IMG/VR virus record: IMGVR_UViG_3300045993_000184
Coordinates: 1-21,258 of that record
Strand: one strand, 5' to 3'
Source of the DNA: a virus
DNA length: 21,258 nt
The position numbers and the translations under genes were made by a program. The notes under the pieces are model-generated. The model ran no database searches, had not been told where the DNA came from, and worked only from the letters and a program-made list of their open reading frames with translations. Shown here one piece after another: positions 1,036-16,858 of the stretch (position 1 is the first letter of the stretch; each line of letters opens with the position of its first letter).

Positions 1036-2682
1036 ATGGCAAATATTAATAATGAGGCAGCCGGCTTAAATTTATTTGGTTTCAACATCACTAAAAGCAA
1101 AAATAAAGATGTTGAAACCAGATCTTTTGTAGCCGCAACTGACATTGAAGGTGGTATTGAAGTAGCCACAGGCTCTGGTGCCGGCTTCAACTCTTACTCA
1201 ATCGACCTTGATCCTTCTTCAATTAAGAATGAAGTAGAACTTATCTCGAAGTACCGTGAAATTTCACTGGTAGCAGATATAGATCTAGCAATTTCTGAAA
1301 TTGTAGACGAGTTTATGGTTATTGACGAAGTAGAAGAACTGGTTACTATCGACTTCCAAACCGAGTTCGATGAAAAGTACTCGAAAAAGACCAAAGAAGC
1401 AATCACAGAAGAATTCAAAAATATTCTTGATCTGCTAAAGTTCCAACAAGTTGGTCCGGATATTGCTCGTAACTGGTATATTGACGGCCGAGTCGCCTTC
1501 CACAAGGTTGTAGATGCTGCCAAACCAAAAGACGGTATCAAAGAACTTCGGCCAATTGACGTAGCTAAACTAAAGCGAATCATTGAGATAAAGAAGGAAG
1601 TTGATTCCAAGACTGGTATCTCTATGGTCGTTGGTCAGTCCGACTTTTACATCTACACAGACGTACAGAAAACTAACAACTACAATGGTGGGCAAGGCGA
1701 CCAAAAGACTGGCATCAAAATTGCTCCAGAATCGGTTGCATATGTTACTTCCGGTCTGATTGATCGTAACTCGAACATGTCGCTGTCTTATCTCCATAAG
1801 GCAATCCGACCACTCAATCAGCTGCGCATGATGGAAGACTCCGATGTTATCTATCGGCTTACTCGTGCTCCACAGCGTCGTATTTTCTACATTGACACTT
1901 CTGGTATGGCTCGTACCAAGGCTGAGCAGTACATTAAAGATGTCATGGCTCGGTATAAGAACAAGCAAGTCTATGATGTCAATACTGGTACGGTTAAAGA
2001 TGCAAAGAACCATCAGTCTATCCTAGAGGACTTCTTCCTTCCACGCACGACTGGTGGCAAGGGAACTGAAATCACTACTTTGGATGGAGCTCCAAGCTTG
2101 GGTTCTATTGAGAATACTCAGTATTTCCAACAGAAGCTGTATCAGGCAATGAACATCCCAATGTCTCGCCTTCAGCAAGGTCAGGGTTCGTTCAACATTG
2201 GCCGGTCCAATGAGATTACTCGGGACGAAATCAAGTTTGCTAAGTTCATCAACAAACTTCGGCTCCGTTTCAACAACCTATTCTTTGACTTGCTCAAGAC
2301 TCAACTCTTGCTCAAGGGTATTGCTACACCCGAAGATTGGGCTCTGATCAAGGAAACTCTGCGCTTCCGTTATGCCAAGGATAACTTCTTTGCAGAACTG
2401 AAAGAATCGGACATGCTGAGAGAACGTCTACAGAACGTCCAGATTGCTGATATGTATGTCGGTAAGTATTACTCCAAAGACTACGTCATGAGAAATATGC
2501 TTAAGCTGACAGATGAAGAAATTGACGAGATGAATAAAGCAATGGAAAAAGACAATGCCGAAGCGGCCAAGGCTATGGCAGCAATGCAACCTGCTCCAGG
2601 CCAAGATGCTCAGAGTGGCCAAGCACAGGATAACACTCCTACGACTCCACCAAAATGGCCTACTGCAGATCAGAAGCAATAA
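1036..2682 (+). CDS. gp20: Portal vertex protein (gp20 family)
   Basis: This 548-residue protein is close in length to T4 gp20 (524). The portal forms a dodecameric ring at one capsid vertex, initiates prohead assembly and is the DNA entry/exit channel. Diagnostic segments include LISKYREISLVADIDLAISE (residues 69-88), NWYIDGRVAFHKV (146-158), SYLHKAIRPLNQLRMMEDSD (from residue 251) and the clip/stem stretch with YQAMNIPMSRL. The C-terminal tail (after about residue 510) is rich in Ala, Gln and Pro and looks disordered. The gene starts 4 bases after gp19 without a clear ribosome binding site, suggesting translational coupling. Its stop codon lies inside an AATAAATA box that may start transcription of the next gene. 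Confidence 0.95.
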   Translation: MANINNEAAGLNLFGFNITKSKNKDVETRSFVAATDIEGGIEVATGSGAGFNSYSIDLDPSSIKNEVELISKYREISLVADIDLAISEIVDEFMVIDEVEELVTIDFQTEFDEKYSKKTKEAITEEFKNILDLLKFQQVGPDIARNWYIDGRVAFHKVVDAAKPKDGIKELRPIDVAKLKRIIEIKKEVDSKTGISMVVGQSDFYIYTDVQKTNNYNGGQGDQKTGIKIAPESVAYVTSGLIDRNSNMSLSYLHKAIRPLNQLRMMEDSDVIYRLTRAPQRRIFYIDTSGMARTKAEQYIKDVMARYKNKQVYDVNTGTVKDAKNHQSILEDFFLPRTTGGKGTEITTLDGAPSLGSIENTQYFQQKLYQAMNIPMSRLQQGQGSFNIGRSNEITRDEIKFAKFINKLRLRFNNLFFDLLKTQLLLKGIATPEDWALIKETLRFRYAKDNFFAELKESDMLRERLQNVQIADMYVGKYYSKDYVMRNMLKLTDEEIDEMNKAMEKDNAEAAKAMAAMQPAPGQDAQSGQAQDNTPTTPPKWPTADQKQ

Positions 2683-2713: not shown

Positions 2714-4486
2714 ATGAGTATATTAGACCAAATCCTACAAGATCAAGAAGCCGCAAAAGCTGCTCTTGGTGCTGCTTTGAATCAAAAAGCATTTGACATA
2801 CTGGACTCTATTTCTTCTAATGAACAGATCGAAGTAGTTATGTACGATGACGAAGATGACACCAACGAATCAGTTGAAGATCTTACAGAAGAAGAACTTG
2901 AAGAAGCAAAGAACACTCCATATCCAAAGAATATGGCTAAGCCTATGACTGATGCCGATATCAAAGCTTGGCAAATCCGTCAAGCTTATGAGAAAAAGGC
3001 TGCAAATGCCAATAAATCTGCTCCTAAGTTTGCCAAAGCCCTCCATGCAGCTCGTGTAAAGCATGACGATGAAGTTGATGAATCTGTTGAAGAACAACTC
3101 GATGAAGCATCAGTTAAACTGAATCTTGGTTACTACGAAGTTCACCACGGTGGTCAACGCGTTGGTAAGTATGTAGCTAAATATGAAGCTAAAGAACATG
3201 CTGCTGATCTGAATGCTAAAGCTGCAAATGCTGCTACAAAAGCAAGATTGGCTAAATTGGCTAAAGCTCGTGCAAAGAATGAATCGGTCGAAGATGAATC
3301 TACTGAAGGCCTCGCAGAAGGTCTAGGTTCACTTGCTGGTCTGTCTAAACATTTGATCAAGACTGTTACTGCTGGCCGTGCTTATGGTGTCCAAGGTGCC
3401 GGCGAACACTCAGAAGTTGAAACTCATGCAGTCAAGAATAAGTCCGGTCATCGTGCTATTCTGAACAAAGCTCTTGATGCAGGCCATGTTCCAGTTGTAT
3501 ATGTAAACGGTAAGATCCACTCTGCCGGTAAATCTAATAGTTCTAGCTATGGTCGTCCTGACTATGCCATCCATTCTGGTGATGAACAACAGACACAAAG
3601 ACAAGTTACATACTCGAAGGGTTATCGCTCTGGTGGCAAAATGCACTACCCAGAGCCACACGTTGGTCAGAACCCACGGTACTCAAAAGGTGATGCTCTT
3701 GAAAAGTTGACTCCAGGCCATGAAGCTTCCTTCTATAAGGAAAACAAGGTCGAAGTTAAGGTTATTCACCCAGACAAAGAACGTCAGAAACTTCATGCTC
3801 AGCGTACAAATGCTCGTCCAGAAACACAGACTAACTATGTAAATACAAAGCCTGGTGATAAGCATGCTTCCCAGTATGTTGACGGTAAGACTAAGACTTC
3901 TGTTACCTCTGCTGGTGACAACCTGAAGTCTATCAAGACTGCTGCTGCCCTTAAATTGGCTACTCAGAAACTTGGTGGTGATAATTCTTCTGCTAACAAG
4001 AAGGCTATGGATCTGCATGCCGAACTTGGTGCTCACCTTGCTAAGGGTGACCACAAAAATGCGATCAATACTGCTAACAAACTTGCCGACCACGTCCGCC
4101 AACAAGGTCTGTCTACCCATGCAGATAAGATTGCTGACTACGCAAAGAATCTTAAAGATCTGAAGTCTCGTTACGACAAGTCTTATGCTAAGTCTAACCT
4201 TGCCAAACTTCGTGGTGATAAGGTTGATGAATCAGAAGAACTCACAGAAGCTCTGGAAGCTATGTTGGTTGAAATGCTTGATACCAATGAAGCTGTAGTC
4301 GGTGGATCTGTAAAGAAGGATCACTACGGTAACATTCTTCATGTTAAGACTGTACCTGATTCTGCTAAGCTAACTCCAGCACAGATCAAGGCACACCACG
4401 ACAAAATCCAAAAAGAACGCCAAAAAGAACATGAAGCCCGTTCTTCAACTCGTTCATCTGGCCAACCACTTGATACGGAAGAATAA
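2714..4486 (+). CDS. Putative internal head/prohead core polyprotein
   Basis: This 590-residue protein occupies the place of T4 genes 67 and 68 (prohead core) between portal and protease but is much longer than either. It has acidic linkers with a repeated (N/D)ESVE motif at residues 51-55, 122-126 and 189-193, and a related DESEELTEAL near 505-514. Each is followed by a sequence fitting the T4 prohead protease rule (L/I)-X-E before A or G: LEE/A at 64-65, LDE/A at 131-132, LAE/G at 202-203 and LTE/A at 512-513. Cutting there would release basic, lysine- and alanine-rich pieces (for example residues 132-190) and a central domain of about 310 residues. I infer a head-internal protein that binds or is ejected with the DNA. 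I do not recognise the central domain. The start follows an AAAGG ribosome binding site. Confidence 0.7.
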   Translation: MSILDQILQDQEAAKAALGAALNQKAFDILDSISSNEQIEVVMYDDEDDTNESVEDLTEEELEEAKNTPYPKNMAKPMTDADIKAWQIRQAYEKKAANANKSAPKFAKALHAARVKHDDEVDESVEEQLDEASVKLNLGYYEVHHGGQRVGKYVAKYEAKEHAADLNAKAANAATKARLAKLAKARAKNESVEDESTEGLAEGLGSLAGLSKHLIKTVTAGRAYGVQGAGEHSEVETHAVKNKSGHRAILNKALDAGHVPVVYVNGKIHSAGKSNSSSYGRPDYAIHSGDEQQTQRQVTYSKGYRSGGKMHYPEPHVGQNPRYSKGDALEKLTPGHEASFYKENKVEVKVIHPDKERQKLHAQRTNARPETQTNYVNTKPGDKHASQYVDGKTKTSVTSAGDNLKSIKTAAALKLATQKLGGDNSSANKKAMDLHAELGAHLAKGDHKNAINTANKLADHVRQQGLSTHADKIADYAKNLKDLKSRYDKSYAKSNLAKLRGDKVDESEELTEALEAMLVEMLDTNEAVVGGSVKKDHYGNILHVKTVPDSAKLTPAQIKAHHDKIQKERQKEHEARSSTRSSGQPLDTEE

Positions 4487-4488
4487 AA

Positions 4489-4848
4489 ATGGCTCTAGTT
4501 AAGAAAATTCTCAAAGCAACACCACGCGAAGTGGTAGTTAAATGGACCGGTTCTGGCACAGATACATTGACTCTAGCTTCCTTGGTTGCTGGCGCCCAAA
4601 CTGTCACCGGCACACCTGAAGTAACTATTGATTCAATGTCAGTAACTAATTCTGGTGCTACTACCATCACACGTAATGCTGAAATTGCATTTCAAGTAAA
4701 CGGTAACTACGACTACAACATGGGCCCTATGGGCTTCGGTAATGTTGCTGAAAATGCAACTTTTGACATTGCAGTCAACATGGTTGCTGTTGGCACTACA
4801 ATCCTACGTGTTCGTAAGGTTAACGGTTACTCTGCTCCTGTTCTATAA
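4489..4848 (+). CDS. Small virion-type structural protein (hypothetical)
   Basis: The 119 residues are rich in Thr, Val, Gly and Asn, with alternating hydrophobic stretches that predict an all-beta fold and no signal peptide, coiled coil or catalytic motif. It ends with TTILRVRKVNGYSAPVL. Proteins of this size and look occur in the structural block of marine T4-like phages. It lies two bases after the 590-residue head gene and 11 bases before the prohead protease, so it is expressed with the head genes. A capsid decoration or other minor virion role is possible, but no specific function can be read. No prohead protease site is evident in it. Confidence 0.7.
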   Translation: MALVKKILKATPREVVVKWTGSGTDTLTLASLVAGAQTVTGTPEVTIDSMSVTNSGATTITRNAEIAFQVNGNYDYNMGPMGFGNVAENATFDIAVNMVAVGTTILRVRKVNGYSAPVL

Positions 4849-4859
4849 AGAAGAAACGT

Positions 4860-5510
4860 ATGAAATTCCTTACTGAAGTAATTGATAATCCCCTAAGCCT
4901 GCTCATGGAAGCAGGAACAGATGGTAAGAAGAATCTTTTCATCCAAGGCCCGTTTGCTGTCGCTGAGTCTAAAAATAAAAATGGTCGCATCTATAAGAAG
5001 GAAATCCTCGAAGGTGCTATCAATAAGTATGATCTAGACTACATCAAGAATGCTCGTGCTCTAGGTGAAATGAACCACCCAGCTCGGCTGAACATTGATT
5101 ACGAACGTGCTACTCACATGATCACAGAAATGCGCCAAGATGGCAACGTCTGGATCGGAAAAGCTAAAGTGTTAAATACACCCATGGGAGCGATCCTTAA
5201 GGGTTTGCTTGAGTCTGGTGTGAATGTTGGTGTGTCTACTCGTGGTGCCGGTTCTATTACCGAAGCCAATGGTATCAAACATGTTGGTTCTGACTTCTTC
5301 CTAACTGCTGTCGACGTTGTATCTGATCCTTCTGGACCAGGTTGCACAATCAATGGTATCATGGAAGGCTTCGAGTACGACTTGGATGCCAAAGGACAAG
5401 CAATCATTGAAGACATTGGAGCCCGTGCTAAGAAAGACTATGACAAGAAAGTACTTACCGAAGCACGTAAGATTGAATTATTCAAACAACTGTTGGAAGC
5501 TATCAAATGA
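4860..5510 (+). CDS. gp21: Prohead core protease (gp21 family, S77)
   Basis: This 216-residue protein matches T4 gp21 (212 residues), the serine protease that degrades the scaffold and trims capsid proteins inside the prohead. Candidate catalytic residues are His73 in GEMNHPA and Ser126 in VGVSTRGAG, with conserved acidic residues in the VDVVSDPSGPG segment (151-161). Candidate self-processing sites of type (L/I)-X-E/A occur at both ends: LME/A after residue 17 and LTE/A after residue 201, agreeing with the autocatalytic trimming known for the T4 enzyme. The stop codon overlaps the next start (ATGA), indicating coupling. Targets with the same motif are present in gp23, the 590-residue protein and the 127-residue protein of this window. 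Confidence 0.93.
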   Translation: MKFLTEVIDNPLSLLMEAGTDGKKNLFIQGPFAVAESKNKNGRIYKKEILEGAINKYDLDYIKNARALGEMNHPARLNIDYERATHMITEMRQDGNVWIGKAKVLNTPMGAILKGLLESGVNVGVSTRGAGSITEANGIKHVGSDFFLTAVDVVSDPSGPGCTINGIMEGFEYDLDAKGQAIIEDIGARAKKDYDKKVLTEARKIELFKQLLEAIK

Positions 5511-5890
5511 ACAAAGAACTAAAACTAATCTCTGAAGCATATACATCTATGCTTCAAGAGGCTTCTGAATGGGAGTCTAGACATGATGAGTTTACTCGTG
5601 CCGGTCAGGAAGCAAATGACACCAGCATAAATAAAACTCTGGCTGGTCTGAAGGCAATTTCTGCTAAGGCTTCGAAGAAACGTGGTTTGATTAATCAAAT
5701 CGTTGGTAAGAATTCTAATGGTGATTTGTCCCGAATTGCTGTTGGTGCTGATGTTTTACACAAAAACATCTCCAAAAATAAGAATTCTAAACATGGCACA
5801 GATGACCGCAAAGAATTGGGTCAACACATGACATATGCAAATTCGCTTCTGCAAAGACATAAAGACCTTGCAGAAGAAACATTAGAGTAA
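5507..5890 (+). CDS. Small head protein candidate with capsid-targeting-like N-terminus
   Basis: The 127-residue product is lysine-, serine- and asparagine-rich, basic in the middle, with no recognised domain. Its N-terminus contains ISE/A after residue 10 and LQE/A after residue 18, both fitting the T4 prohead protease rule. T4 internal proteins carry a similar short N-terminal capsid-targeting sequence ending at an IAE/A cut. The start overlaps the protease stop codon (ATGA) and the scaffold gene follows, so the position is inside the head-assembly operon. I infer a core or internal head protein; the middle and C-terminal part (residues 19-127) gives no clue to function. Confidence 0.65.
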   Translation: MNKELKLISEAYTSMLQEASEWESRHDEFTRAGQEANDTSINKTLAGLKAISAKASKKRGLINQIVGKNSNGDLSRIAVGADVLHKNISKNKNSKHGTDDRKELGQHMTYANSLLQRHKDLAEETLE

Positions 5891-5963: not shown

Positions 5964-6863
5964 ATGACCCTAGAAGAACGAATCAAACAAATGCTTGAAG
6001 AAAGCACAAAGCAAGTAGAGGCAACTCCAGAAGTTATCGCTGAAGAAGTGGTAGCAGAAGAAGTTGTTGAAGAGGAAGTAGCAGAAGAAGTTGTTGCTGA
6101 ATCGAAACCTGCTCCAAAGGCAAAGACGGTTAAGGAAGACACACAAGTGTCCTCACAAGTAGCAGCCCTCCTTGAAGCTGAAGGTCTCTCCGAAGAATTC
6201 AAACTACAAGCAGTGACAATTTTTGAAGCAGCTGTAACAGATCGCGTACTTCAGATCCAAGAAGAATTGGAAGCTGAGTACAACGTAAAACTCGAGGAAG
6301 CTACTGCTGAACTCGAAACCAATATTGATGGATTTTTGAATGAAGCTGTCCAGGAATGGGCAGATAATAATAAAGTAGCAATTGAAGCTAATTTTAAGAC
6401 CCGCCTTGCAGAAAGTTTCATGGATGGTATTCAGTCATTGTTGGCTGAACACAATATTGCCCTGCCAGAAGAGTCCGAAGATGCTTTGGAAATTGCATTA
6501 GATGAAGTTAATAAACTTGAAGAACAAGTCTCTAGTACCGATGAAACCATTGCTCAATTGCATGAAGAAATCGCCACACTGAAGGCTGAAAAGATTCTTG
6601 AGTCGTTCAAAACTAAGATGACCGACACTGAATTTGATCGCTTCGTTCAATTGACGGAGTCTGTTAAGTTTAAAGACGAATCCCAGTACGAAAAGCAATT
6701 GAGCATTGTGCTTGAAAACTTTGGTAAGATCGCTGCAAAGAAGGTAGAAAAAGTAGAAGCTATTGTTGAAACAGTTGAGGCACCAGTTGCACAACCAGTT
6801 ATCACCGAGACATTCTCTTCAGTTAACCGTTATGCCCAGTACCTTGCTAAGAAACCTGCTTAA
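5964..6863 (+). CDS. gp22: Prohead scaffold/core protein (gp22 family)
   Basis: This 299-residue acidic, helical protein sits between protease and capsid genes as T4 gp22 (269 residues) does. It forms the transient inner core around which gp23 assembles and is then degraded by gp21. The N-terminal third is a Glu/Val/Ala repeat (residues 20-46), followed by a Lys/Pro linker and long predicted coiled-coil helices (about 75-210), including an LEEQVSSTDETIAQLHEEIA heptad-like stretch. Many L-X-E tripeptides suit degradation. The C-terminal segment with SSVNRYAQYLAKK resembles the capsid-binding end of gp22 proteins. The start follows GGAG at suitable spacing. Assignment rests on composition, length and position. 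Confidence 0.9.
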   Translation: MTLEERIKQMLEESTKQVEATPEVIAEEVVAEEVVEEEVAEEVVAESKPAPKAKTVKEDTQVSSQVAALLEAEGLSEEFKLQAVTIFEAAVTDRVLQIQEELEAEYNVKLEEATAELETNIDGFLNEAVQEWADNNKVAIEANFKTRLAESFMDGIQSLLAEHNIALPEESEDALEIALDEVNKLEEQVSSTDETIAQLHEEIATLKAEKILESFKTKMTDTEFDRFVQLTESVKFKDESQYEKQLSIVLENFGKIAAKKVEKVEAIVETVEAPVAQPVITETFSSVNRYAQYLAKKPA

Positions 6864-6910: not shown

Positions 6911-8254
6911 ATGGCAGTTCAAACCGTAGAACAACTAATGGAAAAATGGGCACCAGTGCTCGACGCTGAAGGCGTAACTCCAATCACCAACATGCACAAG
7001 CGTCAAACGACTGCCGTGCTGTTGGAAAACACCGAGCAGGACATCATCCAAACTCGTCAACTTCTTTCAGAAGCAACTCCTACATCGCAAACCCAAGGCT
7101 ATCCTACAGATGGTTCCGGTTTGTCTAAGTTCGACCCAGTGTTGATCTCCATGGTTCGCCGTGCAGCTCCACAAATGTTGGCTTATGACATCTGCGGCGT
7201 TCAACCACTTCGTCAGCCTACAGGTTTGATCTTCGCATTGCGTAGCCGTTACGGCAACCAAGCTGGTGCTGAAGCCCAATTCCAAGAAGCTAACTCTGCA
7301 TTCTCTGGTGCTGCTGGTACTTCCCCAGGTACTTCTACTGGTACCGGTCAAGCTGTGTACACTAACGATCCTACAAATGACTTCGTGTTCTCTGATCAGG
7401 ATCCAACTGGTACTACTTCTACCGCTATCGTGGCTCCAGGCCAAGGTATGACGACACAGGTAGGCGAAAGCTTGGGTTCGACAGGTCCAGCATTTGCTGA
7501 AATGTCTTTCACTATCGAACAAATGTCCGTTACTGCTAAGACCCGCGCTTTGAAGGCTGGTTACTCAGTTGAATTTGCTCAAGACGTTAAGAACCTTCAC
7601 GGTCTTGATGCTGATGCAGAACTGTCTAACATCCTTTCAACCGAAATCTTGGCTGAAGTGAATCGTGAAGTTCTCAAGACTATCTATCTTGGTGCTAAGG
7701 TTGGTGCTCAAGGAACTACTGTTCCTGGTATCTTCAATCTTACTGCTGACTCTGATGGCCGTTGGTTGGCTGAACGTCATAAAGGTCTGTTGTTCCAAAT
7801 CGAACGTGAAGCTAATGCTATCGCTCAAGAAACTCGTCGCGGCAAGGGTAACATCCTTGTTTGCTCAAGCGATGTTGCTTCCGCTCTAGCAATGGGTGGT
7901 ATGTTGGATTATGCTCCAGCCTTGGCAAATGACATCAATGTTGATGACACTGGTGCTACCTTCGCAGGTGTGTTGAACAAGAAAATGCGTGTTTACATCG
8001 ATCCATACTCTGGTACCGCTGGCACGAACTCTCAGTTCTTCATGGTTGGTTACAAGGGCGCTTCCGCATGGGACGCTGGTCAGTTCTACTGCCCATACAT
8101 TCCACTGCAAATCGTTCGTACGACCGATCCAGCTACAATGAGCCCAGTGCTTGCTTACCGTCTTCGTTACGGTATGGCTCGCAATCCGTTCTTCAATACG
8201 GCTGGCCGTACTAATGCTTACTACCGCATCGCTGCAGTACGTAACATCATCTAA
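6911..8254 (+). CDS. gp23: Major capsid protein precursor (gp23 family)
   Basis: The 447-residue protein is the hexamer-forming capsid subunit, shorter than T4 gp23 (521). The N-terminal region (residues 1-54: EQLMEKWAPVLDAEGVTPI and following) is the usual delta-domain that binds the scaffold. A prohead protease site LLSE/A follows residue 54, equivalent in position to the T4 cut after residue 65, giving a mature protein of about 393 residues. Further conserved segments are DPVLISMVRRAAPQMLAYDI, GVQPLRQPTGLIFALRSRY and the C-terminal YRLRYGMARNPFF. The start follows AAGAGGTAATTAAA. A strong terminator 20 bases downstream ends the head transcript. Codon choice is biased towards GCT, GGT and CGT, as expected of a highly expressed gene. 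Confidence 0.97.
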   Translation: MAVQTVEQLMEKWAPVLDAEGVTPITNMHKRQTTAVLLENTEQDIIQTRQLLSEATPTSQTQGYPTDGSGLSKFDPVLISMVRRAAPQMLAYDICGVQPLRQPTGLIFALRSRYGNQAGAEAQFQEANSAFSGAAGTSPGTSTGTGQAVYTNDPTNDFVFSDQDPTGTTSTAIVAPGQGMTTQVGESLGSTGPAFAEMSFTIEQMSVTAKTRALKAGYSVEFAQDVKNLHGLDADAELSNILSTEILAEVNREVLKTIYLGAKVGAQGTTVPGIFNLTADSDGRWLAERHKGLLFQIEREANAIAQETRRGKGNILVCSSDVASALAMGGMLDYAPALANDINVDDTGATFAGVLNKKMRVYIDPYSGTAGTNSQFFMVGYKGASAWDAGQFYCPYIPLQIVRTTDPATMSPVLAYRLRYGMARNPFFNTAGRTNAYYRIAAVRNII

Positions 8255-8273
8255 TCTTTCGGTTAGACAAAAC

Positions 8274-8302
8274 AAGGGACCTTCGGGTCCCTTTTTTATT
8301 TT
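8274..8302 (+). terminator. Intrinsic terminator after gp23
   Basis: A perfect 8-bp stem, AAGGGACC (8274-8281) with GGTCCCTT (8286-8293), closes a TTCG tetraloop and runs straight into a T-rich tract (TTTTTTATTTT). It lies just after the major capsid gene and is the only classical terminator seen in the window. Confidence 0.95.
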
Positions 8303-8332
8303 ACAAGCATTCTATTGGTGATATAATAAATA
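8300..8332 (+). promoter_or_regulatory. Dual promoter: sigma70-like plus late-like box
   Basis: TTTACA (8300-8305) and a consensus TATAAT (8322-8327) are separated by 16 bases, a good sigma70-type promoter. The late-like AATAAATA (8325-8332) overlaps the -10 box. The promoter directly follows the terminator and precedes the omega-like gene, whose leader has the AAAGGAAT ribosome binding site seen after other promoters here. Both early/middle and late transcription of the omega-like and gp3-like genes is therefore possible. Confidence 0.7.
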
Positions 8333-8354
8333 AGTCACCACCAAAGGAATAAAG

Positions 8355-8558
8355 ATGCAAATTAAGAAACTTTCTCGCCATGACCAAGTAGACATGGGTA
8401 AGATCCGTGAAGCAGGTAATCTGTATGAAACAATCATCATTGCCTCAGCTCGTGCATATGAACTCCGTAAAGGTGCTCCCCCAAAGATTCATGACAATGA
8501 AGATCCTTTCAACTCTGGTGTCATGACTGCTCTCCTAGAAATTCAAGAAGGATTGTAA
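8355..8558 (+). CDS. RNA polymerase omega subunit-like small protein
   Basis: The 67-residue product resembles the conserved core of bacterial omega (RpoZ): hydrophobic YETIIIASARAYELRKG at residues 24-40 corresponds to the LVLVAARRARQM helix of E. coli omega, and VMTALLEIQEGL at 56-67 to its TVIALREIEEGL. It ends where the omega core ends, lacking the E. coli C-terminal tail. The omega N-terminal ARVT motif, which contributes to ppGpp binding in E. coli RNA polymerase, is not present; the phage protein instead begins QIKKLSRHDQ. Known omega binds beta-prime and helps RNA polymerase assembly. I infer that this protein may join or compete within host polymerase. It has its own promoter and sits between the capsid and gp3-like genes. 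The match is short, so homology needs structural checking. Confidence 0.6.
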   Translation: MQIKKLSRHDQVDMGKIREAGNLYETIIIASARAYELRKGAPPKIHDNEDPFNSGVMTALLEIQEGL

Positions 8559-12740: not shown

Positions 12741-14966
12741 ATGGTACAAGAACAAGAACATTCGGGCAATCTGATGCTGGCTGAATCAAAATTTTATATG
12801 GGTTACTCACGGTGGGATGAGGTAAATTCAAGATATGAAACGTGGGAAGAATCCGTAGCCCGAGTTATGAACATGCATAGACAAAAGTATGCAGACAAGA
12901 TGACTCCAGAATTAGAAGTTGCAATGAACTATGCTCAAGAAGCATATACCGAAAAACTTGTTCTTGGTGCCCAACGTGCTCTACAATTTGGTGGCGATCA
13001 AATCTTTAAGCATGAATCTCGTATGTACAATTGCTCTGTTTCTTATGTTGACCGTCCAGCATTCTTCAACGAATGCATGTATCTTATGCTCTCGGGTTGT
13101 GGAGTCGGTTTCTCTGTCGGCAAGAAACGTATTGACAAACTTCCTTCTATTGCTCGCCGGTCACAGAAGAAGGCAAAGATCTATCAGGTGCCAGATTCTA
13201 TTGAAGGTTGGGCTGAGGCATTTGGTGTTCTGCTAAGTTCATATTTCACTGAGGGTGCAACTCACCCCGAGTTCCGTGGTTGCCAGGTTCACTTTGACTT
13301 TACAAAGATTCGCCCTTCTGGTGCCAAAATCTCTGGTGGTTTCAAGGCTCCAGGCCCAGATGGACTACGAGCGGCTTTGGTCAAATGTGAAGATGTGTTG
13401 GAAAACCTGCTTGAAGAGAAGCCTATCACAAAACTGAACTCGATCACAGCCTACGACTTCGTGATGCACATGTCCGATGCCGTACTTTCTGGTGGTGTTC
13501 GCCGCTCAGCAACAATCTGTGTCTTCGACAAAGATGACCATGATATGCTGAAGGCAAAGACCGGTGATTGGTTTATTACCAACCCACAACGTGGTCGTTC
13601 TAACAATTCAGCTCTCATTATCCGTGACGAACTGACCCGTGATGAATGGCATCAAATTATGAAGTCGGTCAAGGACTTTGGTGAGCCAGGATTCATCTTT
13701 GCTGAATCCGATGACTTCATGTGGAATCCTTGTGTAGAAATTGGTATGCTTCCACAAACCGAAGATTACGTGTCTGGCTTCCAATTCTGCAACCTTACAG
13801 AGATCAATGGTCGCAAATGTATAGATAAGGCTACGTTCCTCCGTGCTTGCCGTGCATCTGCAATTCTTGGTACTATCCAGGCTGGGTATACAAACTTCAA
13901 ATATGTTTCTGAAGCTACTCGTAAAATCACAGAGCGCGAAGCTCTCATCGGTTGCTCTATTACCGGTTGGATGAACAATCCAGACATCTTGTTTGACAAA
14001 CAAAACATGATTGAAGGTGCTACACTGATCAAGGAAGTCAATGCTCAGATGGCCGACATTCTTGGTATCAACCATGCTGCTCGTACTACCTGTGTGAAAC
14101 CATCTGGTAATGCTTCTACCCTATTGGCTTCGGGTTCTGGTATTCATGGTGAGCATGCTGAATTGTTCTTCCGTCACGTGCAGATGAATGTGAACGACGA
14201 AGTCGCAAAGCATATCCAGGCTATCAATCCAAAGATGGTAGAAAAATCAGTCTGGTCACCAAACGGCACAGATGTAGTTGTAGCATTTCCTATCATTACC
14301 AAGCCTGGTTCTAAGTATAAATCCGAGTTGCTTGGTGTGAAACAACTTGAGTACGTAAAACTTGCCCAACAGTACTGGGTAGAATATGGCACCAATGTAG
14401 AATTATGTGCCCATCCAAAACTCCGGCACAATGTTTCTAATACTATCACCGTAGATAACTGGGATGAAGTAGAACAATACTTGTTTGACAACCGCCAATT
14501 CTTTGCTGGTGTCTCACTTATGGCAGGGTCAGGCGACAAGGCATATGCTCAGGCACCATTTACTGAAGTGCTAACGTTTGAGAAGATCGTAGAACTGCAT
14601 GGTGAAGGTTCACTATTCGCGTCAGGTCTAATCGTAGAGGCGTTAAGAGCTTACAATGAGAACCTTTGGCTCGCTTGTGATACATTGGTCGGTAAGGGTC
14701 TTAAATTGTCTACGGAATCGGAAGATTTGCTGAAACGTGACTGGATTCGCAGAGCTACCAAGTTTGCCTCCAACTACTTCAAGGGTGATTCGGACTCCAT
14801 GATTGCATGTCTCAAAGATTGCTACAATTTACACAAATGGTCCAACATCAACCGTTCTATGTACCACATCGACTTCTCTAAGGAACTACAAGCTCAACAG
14901 TATGTTTCTGTAGATTCTCTTGCCGGTGCTGCATGCAGCGGAGGTACTTGTTCCGTAGAATTTTAA
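12741..14966 (+). CDS. nrdJ: Class II (B12-dependent) ribonucleoside-triphosphate reductase
   Basis: The product converts ribonucleotides to deoxyribonucleotides using adenosylcobalamin. With the start at 12741, supported by GGAAGAG (12725-12731), it has 741 residues, close to the 739 of the Lactobacillus leichmannii monomeric enzyme; a 12723 ATG lacks a ribosome binding site. Active-site residues by this numbering are Cys98 (YNCS), Asn329, Cys331 and Glu333 (NPCVE), and Cys350 (FCNLTE). The C-terminal redox pair is Cys732 and Cys737 in CSGGTCSVEF. T4 itself has a class I enzyme, so this marks an aquatic-type phage whose host makes or imports B12. No intein or intron interrupts it. Its last bases overlap the convergent endonuclease gene. 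Confidence 0.95.
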   Translation: MVQEQEHSGNLMLAESKFYMGYSRWDEVNSRYETWEESVARVMNMHRQKYADKMTPELEVAMNYAQEAYTEKLVLGAQRALQFGGDQIFKHESRMYNCSVSYVDRPAFFNECMYLMLSGCGVGFSVGKKRIDKLPSIARRSQKKAKIYQVPDSIEGWAEAFGVLLSSYFTEGATHPEFRGCQVHFDFTKIRPSGAKISGGFKAPGPDGLRAALVKCEDVLENLLEEKPITKLNSITAYDFVMHMSDAVLSGGVRRSATICVFDKDDHDMLKAKTGDWFITNPQRGRSNNSALIIRDELTRDEWHQIMKSVKDFGEPGFIFAESDDFMWNPCVEIGMLPQTEDYVSGFQFCNLTEINGRKCIDKATFLRACRASAILGTIQAGYTNFKYVSEATRKITEREALIGCSITGWMNNPDILFDKQNMIEGATLIKEVNAQMADILGINHAARTTCVKPSGNASTLLASGSGIHGEHAELFFRHVQMNVNDEVAKHIQAINPKMVEKSVWSPNGTDVVVAFPIITKPGSKYKSELLGVKQLEYVKLAQQYWVEYGTNVELCAHPKLRHNVSNTITVDNWDEVEQYLFDNRQFFAGVSLMAGSGDKAYAQAPFTEVLTFEKIVELHGEGSLFASGLIVEALRAYNENLWLACDTLVGKGLKLSTESEDLLKRDWIRRATKFASNYFKGDSDSMIACLKDCYNLHKWSNINRSMYHIDFSKELQAQQYVSVDSLAGAACSGGTCSVEF

Positions 14967-15838
14967 TTTCTAATTTTTGATAAAATGACGTATCCGGATT
15001 TATTCTTTTTGTTTGTTATGCCGGATACGTTATTATCTCTATAGAATTTAGACAAATTACCAACTTCTATGATTTTCCCAGCTGGGGTTAATAATTTATA
15101 TGTCACAACCGATCTTGTATAGTTTGTATGAGATTTTTCTGCATAGCCCAAAACATATCCCTGTGCCAAAGCTTCATTTAAATTTATCAAATCAATTCTA
15201 GCATTCTTATTAAGAAAATTGTGCATCCAAATAGATTCTTTGGAAATCCATGCATTGCTTATAGATTCTTTCCATTGATCAAATTCTTCTTGGTGCATAA
15301 ATTCTTTGATAGATTTACCATACATAGAATTTTTATCACCAAAATTTCCATATTTTAAACTTTTTTCTTCTGGGCTCATTTCCGACATTAGTAGTTCAAG
15401 AGTGCTTTTGCGCTTCAATTTGCTTTCTTTTGTTTGATGTTTCCCTGGATTTTGATCTGATTTCATCCGCTTACTAGCAGATTCTCTAGATTTTTGGGTG
15501 CGGCCGGCATTCCCTAAGAATTTTGTCTTACCTTTAGGTGGTTGCACTGCCATATTTAGAATTAATGGATTTTTAAAATTTTCTAAAATTAATTCTTGTT
15601 CAAAAACATAGGCATCATATGGATCAAAGAATTCCGCAAGGATCATAGTATTGAATTGTTCAAATCTAGGTTTAACTATATCCGAACTAGTTTTGTACTT
15701 CAAAATATCTTTATGAGAAGGTAGATTGAGTTTATTTGATGTTCTACTTCCTATATAAAATGTACCATTTTCTTTGTGGGTACATAGATAAACATAGGGT
15801 AGAATTTTTTCAGATGAATAAATATCTGTGCTGGTCAT
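14963..15838 (-). CDS. GIY-YIG homing endonuclease with NUMOD modules
   Basis: This 291-residue protein is on the opposite strand from almost everything else. The GIY-YIG catalytic domain has YVYLCT (residues 15-20), TFYIGSR (26-32) and a downstream glutamate in YVFEQELI (80 or 82). A NUMOD3-like DNA-binding module, GDKNSMYGKS, is at 167-176, then a WMHN...IDLINLNEALAQGYVLGY element (204-232) and a C-terminal module TYKLLTPAGKIIEVGNLSKF (246-265). A ribosome binding site AAGGAT precedes the start. The gene is visibly AT-richer (20 G+C in the 60 bases 15241-15300, against 29 in 1861-1920), a sign of separate origin. It is inserted directly at the nrdJ 3' end, overlapping it by 4 bases without disrupting it. 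Confidence 0.88.
   Translation of the reverse strand: MTSTDIYSSEKILPYVYLCTHKENGTFYIGSRTSNKLNLPSHKDILKYKTSSDIVKPRFEQFNTMILAEFFDPYDAYVFEQELILENFKNPLILNMAVQPPKGKTKFLGNAGRTQKSRESASKRMKSDQNPGKHQTKESKLKRKSTLELLMSEMSPEEKSLKYGNFGDKNSMYGKSIKEFMHQEEFDQWKESISNAWISKESIWMHNFLNKNARIDLINLNEALAQGYVLGYAEKSHTNYTRSVVTYKLLTPAGKIIEVGNLSKFYRDNNVSGITNKKNKSGYVILSKIRN
14984..15034. repeat. Inverted repeat (14-bp arms) at the nrdJ/endonuclease convergence
   Basis: AATGACGTATCCGG (14984-14997) pairs with CCGGATACGTTATT (15021-15034), including one G-T pair, around a 23-base loop. It lies 18 bases after the nrdJ stop and inside the 3' end of the opposing endonuclease gene. It could act as a terminator or mRNA-stabilising hairpin for nrdJ, but no clear U tract follows on either strand. 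Confidence 0.6.
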
Positions 15839-15933: not shown

Positions 15934-16380
15934 ATGACTTGGATTTATGAGAATGAACCTGTATCTGAGGTTGACCCACAGTACATAGGTTTCATATACT
16001 GTATCACTAACTTATTAGACGGTAGACGATACATAGGAAAAAAGAAATCGACTTTCAAGAAAACTTCGATTAAAACCATCAAACTAAAAAACGGTGAGAA
16101 GCGGAAGAAGAAAATCCGATCTTTAGTTCCTTCCGATTGGGATACTTACTATGGATCATCAGAAGAATTAAAGAAGGATGTAGAAACTTTAGGAAAAGAA
16201 AACTTCAAACGAGAAATAACTCGGTGGTGTAGAACACTAAGCGAACTGACCTACTTTGAGGCCCGTGAACAATTTGTCACGGATTGCTTACTATACCCAG
16301 ACAAATTCTACAATGCTTGGATCTCATGTAGAACACGCAGAGATCATCTACTGAAATTTACACAAATTGCACCAGTATGA
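15934..16380 (+). CDS. Short GIY-YIG endonuclease
   Basis: The 148-residue protein has a GIY-YIG nuclease core: GFIYCITN (residues 19-26), RRYIGKK (31-37), the W-D-T-Y-Y-G-S-S segment (69-76), and a conserved glutamate in YFEAREQF (Glu109), followed by FYNAWISCR. A basic insert (KLKNGEKRKKK, about 50-60) may contact DNA. Unlike the 291-residue endonuclease it lacks NUMOD-type C-terminal modules. Similar short proteins are widespread free-standing endonucleases in T4-like phages, where they may act as homing or DNA-processing nucleases. It is divergent from its larger neighbour. Its last bases hold a promoter-like element for the downstream toxin module. Confidence 0.85.
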   Translation: MTWIYENEPVSEVDPQYIGFIYCITNLLDGRRYIGKKKSTFKKTSIKTIKLKNGEKRKKKIRSLVPSDWDTYYGSSEELKKDVETLGKENFKREITRWCRTLSELTYFEAREQFVTDCLLYPDKFYNAWISCRTRRDHLLKFTQIAPV

Positions 16381-16404: not shown

Positions 16405-16536
16405 ATGATCAAAACTAAACAGTTAACACAACCGATAGCGGAAAAGAAAAAAATTACAAAAGAAAAATTTTTATCTTCTGCTTTAAAACAAATCAAACTT
16501 CACAAAGCATTGCTTGATAAGTTAAAAGATGCTTGA
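16405..16536 (+). CDS. 43-residue lysine-rich ORF, candidate Doc antitoxin
   Basis: The ATG at 16405 follows a good ribosome binding site (AAAGGAAA) and encodes 43 residues starting MIKTKQLTQPIAEKKKITKE and ending LHKALLDKLKDA. It is strongly basic, probably helical and without a DNA-binding domain. Its stop lies 5 bases inside the downstream toxin-like gene (8-base overlap), the order and coupling usual for antitoxin-toxin pairs. In phage P1 the C-terminal tail of Phd (about 20 residues) is enough to neutralise Doc, so a short helical peptide could act as a minimal inhibitor. This is an inference from position; no sequence similarity to Phd is evident. The charge is opposite to the acidic nature of many antitoxins, which is a point against it. 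Confidence 0.55.
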   Translation: MIKTKQLTQPIAEKKKITKEKFLSSALKQIKLHKALLDKLKDA

Positions 16537-16858
16537 ATTTTTAACCGAATCTACAATAATAGAGATTAATAAGAATTTAGGGTATTCAATCCTAAATAAA
16601 TCTCTCGTGGGTTCGGCCATTTCTTCTTGGCACTATTATAGAGATGTTAAGGATCAGATTGCTTCTGTAGTGCTAGGTATTACGAAGAATCATGCATTTT
16701 CAGACGGTAACAAAAGGACTGCTACTGTTGTATATTATGCGCTTTGTGATTGCTTAGAAATAAAACCTCTATCCGAATTCAAAATGAACATAGTAATTTT
16801 GAATATTGCTTCTTCTAAAAATATGTCAGTAATTACCGCAAGAAAATTGCTATTCTGA
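16529..16858 (+). CDS. Doc/Fic-fold toxin-like protein
   Basis: The 109-residue protein contains the Fic/Doc active motif HAFSDGNKR at residues 55-63, followed by TATVVYYALCDCLEI, which matches the Doc type (P1 Doc: HxFxDANKRTA) rather than AMPylating Fic proteins (HxFxxGNGRxxR). P1 Doc (126 residues) phosphorylates elongation factor EF-Tu and stops translation. The rest of the helical bundle is present: SLVGSAISSWHYYRDVKDQI before and the NMSVITARKLL helix after. The start lacks a strong ribosome binding site and overlaps the 43-residue ORF, so it is probably translationally coupled to it. The region is AT-rich compared with the structural genes. Function in a lytic phage (host shut-off, competitor exclusion) is inference. 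Confidence 0.85.
   Translation: MLEFLTESTIIEINKNLGYSILNKSLVGSAISSWHYYRDVKDQIASVVLGITKNHAFSDGNKRTATVVYYALCDCLEIKPLSEFKMNIVILNIASSKNMSVITARKLLF

Follow-up and report, generated by a model that had tools for sequence, protein, structure and literature searches.

A modular 590-residue protein with predicted gp21 sites between exchangeable blocks in the head-gene cluster of T4-like environmental phages

Results

Gene order around the 590-residue ORF

The window analyzed here, a 21,258-nucleotide stretch of viral DNA (positions 1 to 21,258 of IMG/VR record IMGVR_UViG_3300045993_000184), is part of a T4-like phage genome in which the genes for the tail tube, portal (gp20), a 590-aa protein, a 119-aa protein, gp21 protease, a 127-aa protein, gp22 scaffold and gp23 capsid protein follow one another. 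The 590-aa ORF at 2714..4486 (+), first reported in a preliminary description, was confirmed, and an identical copy is present on a 69-kb contig of the same virus. By comparison with the T4 gene order, its position between the gp20-type portal gene (1036..2682, +) and gp21 is that of T4 genes 67 and 68. The functionally unassigned 119-aa gene (4489..4848, +) is kept between the polyprotein gene and gp21. Searches of the 590-aa protein against Pfam, PHROGs and NCBIfam gave no significant match; no Pfam family reached E ≤ 1, and no recognized effector or embedded peptidase domain was found. tblastn against 50,697 phage records returned no match for this protein, for its relative in locus L004 or for two other chains encoded by the L009 genome.

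The gp21-type prohead protease gene (4860..5510, +) starts 373 bases downstream of the 590-aa gene. Its product matched Peptidase_S77 (E = 8e-34, 117 bits against a cut-off of 27) and is intact, with H73 and S126 conserved in alignment with T4 gp21. Little besides L/I-x-E before the cut determines cleavage by T4 gp21 (PMC9026906). The proteases of phiKZ and SPN3US likewise cleave behind a Glu within a short motif, in many cases at several points of one substrate (PMC5694885). Downstream of the gp22-type scaffold gene (T4_CASP; 5964..6863, +), the gp23-type major capsid protein (6911..8254, +) has a predicted gp21 site after residue 54, where LLSE↓AT aligned with FLTE↓AE of T4 gp23 (arrows mark predicted cuts). 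The T4 gp23 site is thus retained in the capsid protein, which makes L-x-E↓A the probable protease motif of this phage.

Between gp21 and gp22 lies a separate internal-protein-like gene of 127 aa (5507..5890, +), composed of a leader, MNKELKLISEAYTSMLQE↓A, and a basic 109-aa body. The leader, with the common pattern M..ELK.I.EAY..ML, also precedes unrelated bodies in L002 (two genes, 7513-7941 and 7950-8417), L005 (6419-6916), the L009 genome (L116 8267-8593) and L095 (7055-7408). In T4, IPI-III and Alt carry capsid targeting sequences, leaders cut by gp21 at L/I-x-E, and their cargo varies among relatives. The 127-aa gene fits this pattern directly by sequence, and it and its leader-sharing counterparts look as expected for capsid-targeted internal proteins. 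The earlier proposal that the 590-aa gene replaces IP-type genes was therefore abandoned, since an IP-like gene with a predicted cleavable leader is present after gp21.

Predicted cut sites in the 590-residue protein

The motif [LI]xE↓[AGS] occurs in the 590-aa protein only at residues 64 (ELEE↓AKN), 131 (QLDE↓ASV), 202 (GLAE↓GLG) and 512 (ELTE↓ALE), exactly the four sites listed in the preliminary description. Shuffled sequence would give 1.34 such sites (P = 0.04; P = 0.016 with A or G only at the last position), and L/I-x-E followed by any residue was not in excess (6 against 5.1 expected). The count by itself is thus near chance and suggestive only, so the case for the cut sites rests on the relatives. 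The linkers are strongly acidic (net charge -10 for residues 41-60 and -7 for residues 501-520), as had been described, and the pieces after the head are neutral to basic by charge calculation. The (N/D)ESVE-type sequence said to precede all four sites was found before the first three and is replaced by VDESEELTE before residue 512.

These sites and the borders in relatives divide the protein into five segments. The head segment (residues 1-64; 2714..2905, +; net charge -18, pI 4.1) comprises a conserved, gp67-like helix (residues 1-48) and an acidic linker ending in ELEE↓A; site 64 is the end of this unit, with equivalents in relatives at 54, 69 and about 68. Block 2 (residues 65-131; 2906..3106, +), for which no relative was found, is predicted to be helical and ends in EEQLDE↓A, and block 3 (residues 132-202; 3107..3319, +) is predicted to be beta-beta-alpha and ends in GLAE↓G. 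In relatives, block borders fall at sites 131 and 202. The core (residues 203-526; 3320..4291, +) is basic (pI 9.4), with a predicted alpha/beta part (about residues 233-362) and a helical part. The tail block (residues 527-590, AVVGGSVKKD...; 4292..4483, +) is common to L002, L004, L005 and L012.

The fourth site of the preliminary description, LTE↓A after residue 512 (codons 512-513; 4247..4252, +), is not a shared border: it is private to the window, and relatives read EVIES or ELVDA at this point. Relatives insert or exchange blocks 14 residues farther on, at LD[TVI]NE↓A, which in the window is LDTNE↓AVV after residue 526 (codons 526-527; 4289..4294, +) and in relatives contains INE or VNE. 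Because the conserved border lies at 526 instead of 512, the proposed pieces of 64, 67 and 71 residues stand, and those of 310 and 78 residues become about 324 and 64. Two borders are off-motif, namely window residue 526, with T at P3 (DTNE↓A), and one in L002 (SEYE↓G). As the P3 Thr departs from the motif although the border at 526 is shared, the window protein may be cut at 512, 526 or both.

Block exchange among relatives

Ten loci in IMG/VR carried the gene, one of them from the same virus, and the gene directly follows the portal wherever the contig covers that region. The products range from 844 aa, counted from its ATG, in L004 to 629 aa in L009 (a 192-kb contig), 495 aa in L002 and L008, 438 aa or fragments in L005, L006, L007 and L011, a fragment in L010 and 104 aa in L012. 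Common to the relatives are a head of about 48 residues and a core of 318-324 residues; the remainder is variable. Every relative of sufficient length has the core, the one exception being the 104-aa L012 protein; the core is 63-70% identical among relatives and contains no L/I-x-E↓A/G/S site before 512.

The variable parts are blocks of 50-95 residues that are swapped, gained or lost between head and core and after the core. Between head and core, L005 has only a linker, L002 one block, the window two, L004 three and L009 one other block. The single block of L002 (5151-5340) and one of the three in L004 (polyprotein residues 129-199) belong to the Rmf/CrpP family, which is absent from the window. 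These blocks scored 33.8 and 32.9 bits against NF041886, above the NCBIfam cut-off of 28 and below that of Pfam PF04957; the Rmf block gave no match to PDB sequences. Another of the L004 blocks is block 3 of the window (ASVKLNLGYYEVHH...), placed after an unrelated neighbour (EINE↓ASVKLN). After the core of L004, an inserted DnaJ-type zinc-ribbon block separates INE↓ from the tail block (AVVAGSVKKD), which two more blocks follow; in L009 the tail is fully replaced.

To relate block borders to the motif, 38 block starts were taken from the IMG/VR loci and from proteins related to them, each scored by its first conserved residue, because ungapped seed extensions entered the similar acidic linkers; borders from all-against-all blastp ran through gaps and were discarded. 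With some block offsets set by eye, 29 of the 38 starts lay within one residue of [LIV]xE↓ compared to 2.2 expected, and the maximum in 5,000 random-position trials was 9. The same motif precedes blocks that are unrelated in sequence (ASVKLN, GLGSLAG, AVVAGS and SGDYDSHYNAG).

Two relatives differ in other ways. In L012 (5894-6208) the head runs directly into the tail block (DENTNE↓AVVAGS; 104 aa in all) and the core is absent entirely, either through a natural deletion at the putative cut site or as an assembly artefact. The L009 genome has two ORFs of 180 and 575 aa (L116 4997-7266) instead of the 119-aa slot gene, perhaps reflecting altered capsid decoration.

A recurrent block preceded by the cleavage motif

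Since some other block offsets were set by eye, the cleanest border test was provided by a recurrent block, LSKxTLGSY[IV]KKA. [LI]xE stands immediately before 14 of 14 copies in a first set, and the motif was likewise found immediately before all 66 copies of an earlier fetched set. A DNA pattern for TLGSYVKKA, from which the linker was excluded, was then run over IMG/VR and gave at least 83 distinct copies; among the matches listed, [LIVM]xE directly preceded 83 of 83 (71 with strict [LI]), compared to a background frequency of 1.3% of residues. These 83 copies are not 83 independent events, because descent may relate them. The linker letters before the block vary (QIDE, QLDE, ELDE, TITE, TLFE and YVTE), and the residue after the putative cut is L or I instead of A/G/S. 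Of 79 loci in an earlier set, 43 had a portal-like ORF nearby, 32 a gp21-like one and 23 a gp22-like one. tblastn with a hand-written consensus of the block gave no match in cultured phages.

In the L009 genome the recurrent block (LSKKTLKSYIKKA) also lies inside the gp22 scaffold (L116 8686-9732), after EEQLDE; the gp22 of the window has none. The same genome encodes two further modular chains of 729 and 749 aa (L115 8659-10848 and 11686-13935), with up to about ten pieces and EEVLDE↓-type linkers, adjoining genes with an MKTFxEYLxE leader, a DUF6267 gene and an NMNAT-like gene. The 749-aa chain weakly matches a phage ProQ C-terminal-like domain.

Among cultured phages, 682-aa chains of similar build were found in Caulobacter phage Cr30 (AGS80949.1) and Synechococcus phage S-SKS1 (SWZG_00082), both hypothetical proteins. 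They share the chain architecture of the window protein and carry the recurrent LSKxTLGSYxKKA block after [LI]xE, but lie outside the head cluster and have neither the gp67-like head nor the shared core. The Cr30 chain, too, closely follows a cytidylyltransferase gene.

Structure predictions for the core and full chain

The core was modelled from a six-sequence alignment with a mean pLDDT of 56.7; core residues of about 31-160 were mostly at 55-85 (alpha/beta) and the remainder was helical. No convincing fold match was obtained, in agreement with the preliminary view of this piece as being of unknown fold. All Foldseek matches of the core to the PDB had E > 0.05, and no match was found in bacterial and archaeal genomes. 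VIA-align reached a Z value of 5.9; its matches were of unrelated folds and included several papain-like cysteine proteases. As the 590-aa protein has no cysteine, no cysteine protease assignment is made. The best BFVD match was an uncharacterized 330-aa protein of Agrobacterium phage Atu_ph07 (E = 2.8e-4), judged by length to be probably the ORF at 26390 of MF403008, for which a profile search gave only E = 3.5; this match is kept as a lead.

In the full-chain model (mean pLDDT 49.5), residues 3-35 form a head helix, block 2 contains helices (80-114) and block 3 is beta-beta-alpha (140-187), with the core following. Confidence was low at 131, 202 and 486-555, and site 64 was at a helix end. 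This model, of low confidence as a whole, suggests that the linkers may be flexible.

Relation to gp67 and other head proteins

Alignment by hhalign of the heads with gp67-like slot proteins, including T4 gp67, gave a weak link (probability 59.5, P-value 9e-5). In Synechococcus phage BUCT-ZZ01, the closest cultured phage by portal (53% identity), the slot gene (UTS52006.1) encodes a gp67-like head, 28% identical to T4 gp67 in alignment, followed by one recurrent block after ELYE↓. The polyprotein is probably homologous to gp67, as a gp67-type gene that gained blocks. It resembles T4 gp67 and gp68 in slot, in an acidic N-terminal head of weak profile similarity to gp67 and in gp21-substrate motif, but at 590 aa compared to 80 and 141 aa it is not a small gp67-type protein of about 80 residues, and T4 gp67 has no folded, exchangeable blocks of the kind present here.

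Other systems share single features with this chain. T4 internal proteins carry one cargo per gene behind a targeting sequence of 10-20 residues, whereas the window chain would carry several cargos behind one acidic head of about 64 residues, with internal sites between them. Inner head proteins with long propeptides in phiKZ and SPN3US likewise have several prohead-protease sites per protein, but there the extra sites belong to the propeptide, which is discarded, and do not separate exchangeable blocks (PMC5694885). The polyvalent proteins of phages and plasmids also combine many domains per chain, delivery by a mobile element and domain shuffling (PMC5512222); unlike the window chain, they bear recognized effector domains and often their own peptidase, the candidate protease here being the separate gp21. 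The open-licence literature yielded no paper describing a modular head polyprotein processed by a prohead protease, nor one describing Rmf carried in virions, an absence that is weak evidence.

Discussion

We consider it likely that the 590-aa gene is a gp67-type core gene that has grown to encode a cassette polyprotein, which would be cut by gp21. This reading draws on the position of the gene, the motif, block exchange at the motif, and the protease together with the occurrence of its motif in the capsid protein. The preliminary proposal that a prohead protease acts on the chain gains support from the adjoining gp21 gene, the capsid site and the placement of the relatives' borders on predicted sites. 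In the course of events that we infer, which takes in packaging, cleavage, DNA association, ejection and a function for each piece, the acidic N-terminal segment would target the entire chain into the scaffold core. After closure of the shell, gp21 would cut at L/I/V-x-E within flexible acidic linkers; the acidic leader would be lost or remain in peptide form, and the folded pieces, most of them neutral to basic (about 7.6, 7.6, 35 and 7 kDa), would stay with the DNA. By analogy to T4 internal proteins, entry of some pieces into the host is plausible. Since each piece is an exchangeable unit, the phage could alter what its head contains by recombining at the linkers, whose sequences are similar.

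The T4 proteins of the same slot point to another fate for the pieces. T4 gp67 is annotated as a precursor to internal peptides, fragments of T4 gp22, gp67 and gp68 mostly leave (PMC9026906), and both slot and head correspond; the chain could accordingly be a core precursor that shapes the core and is simply degraded, its peptides mostly leaving the head and its blocks functionless after assembly. We judge this unlikely: the 324-residue core is preserved at 63-70% identity and is free of L/I-x-E↓A/G/S sites before 512, the blocks change places intact, and in relatives they include the known folded families Rmf/CrpP and zinc ribbon.

It is less probable still, and in our estimate quite improbable, that the protein acts whole as an uncut multidomain chain, with [LIV]xE either belonging to the fold of each block, for example as the start of a helix (IDELSKKTLGSY), or forming a linker prone to recombination. 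The invariance of the motif in the recurrent block could indeed be structural, and the likeness of acidic linkers alone could guide recombination, but blocks unrelated in sequence follow the same motif, and that motif is the one of gp21, encoded next door. That the sites arose by chance in a protein with acidic linkers and an unrelated function outside the head, as the P value of 0.04 for the count alone might allow, is hardly credible in view of the gene order, the border statistics and the unbroken series among the recurrent-block matches listed.

If the cassette polyprotein is cleaved as proposed, several internal proteins would be loaded via one leader and one gene, and cargo would evolve through swaps of whole units bounded by cut sites. 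The pattern of a block after [LIV]xE serves as a sequence rule by which hundreds of candidates for internal head proteins, so far without annotation, can be found in environmental T4-like phages. It also becomes possible to test directly for a ribosome factor carried in the virion. More tentatively, and as a possibility that we would not yet favour, such beads-on-a-string polyproteins may be a general means of cargo loading in environmental T4-like phages: the folded beads, among them in relatives an Rmf/CrpP protein of ribosome-hibernation type, would be freed by gp21 in the head, delivered with the genome and swapped between phages at cut sites in the manner of plug-ins, with the scaffold gene as one more recipient.

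Other ORFs in the window

Three further ORFs of the window were read by eye. A small ORF at 16529-16858 contains HAFSDGNKRTA, a Fic/Doc-type motif. Two adjacent ORFs, at 14963-15838 (-) and 15934-16380 (+), have GIY-YIG-like starts (YVYLCTHKENGTFYIGSR and GFIYCITNLLDGRRYIGKKK) and are possibly homing endonucleases.
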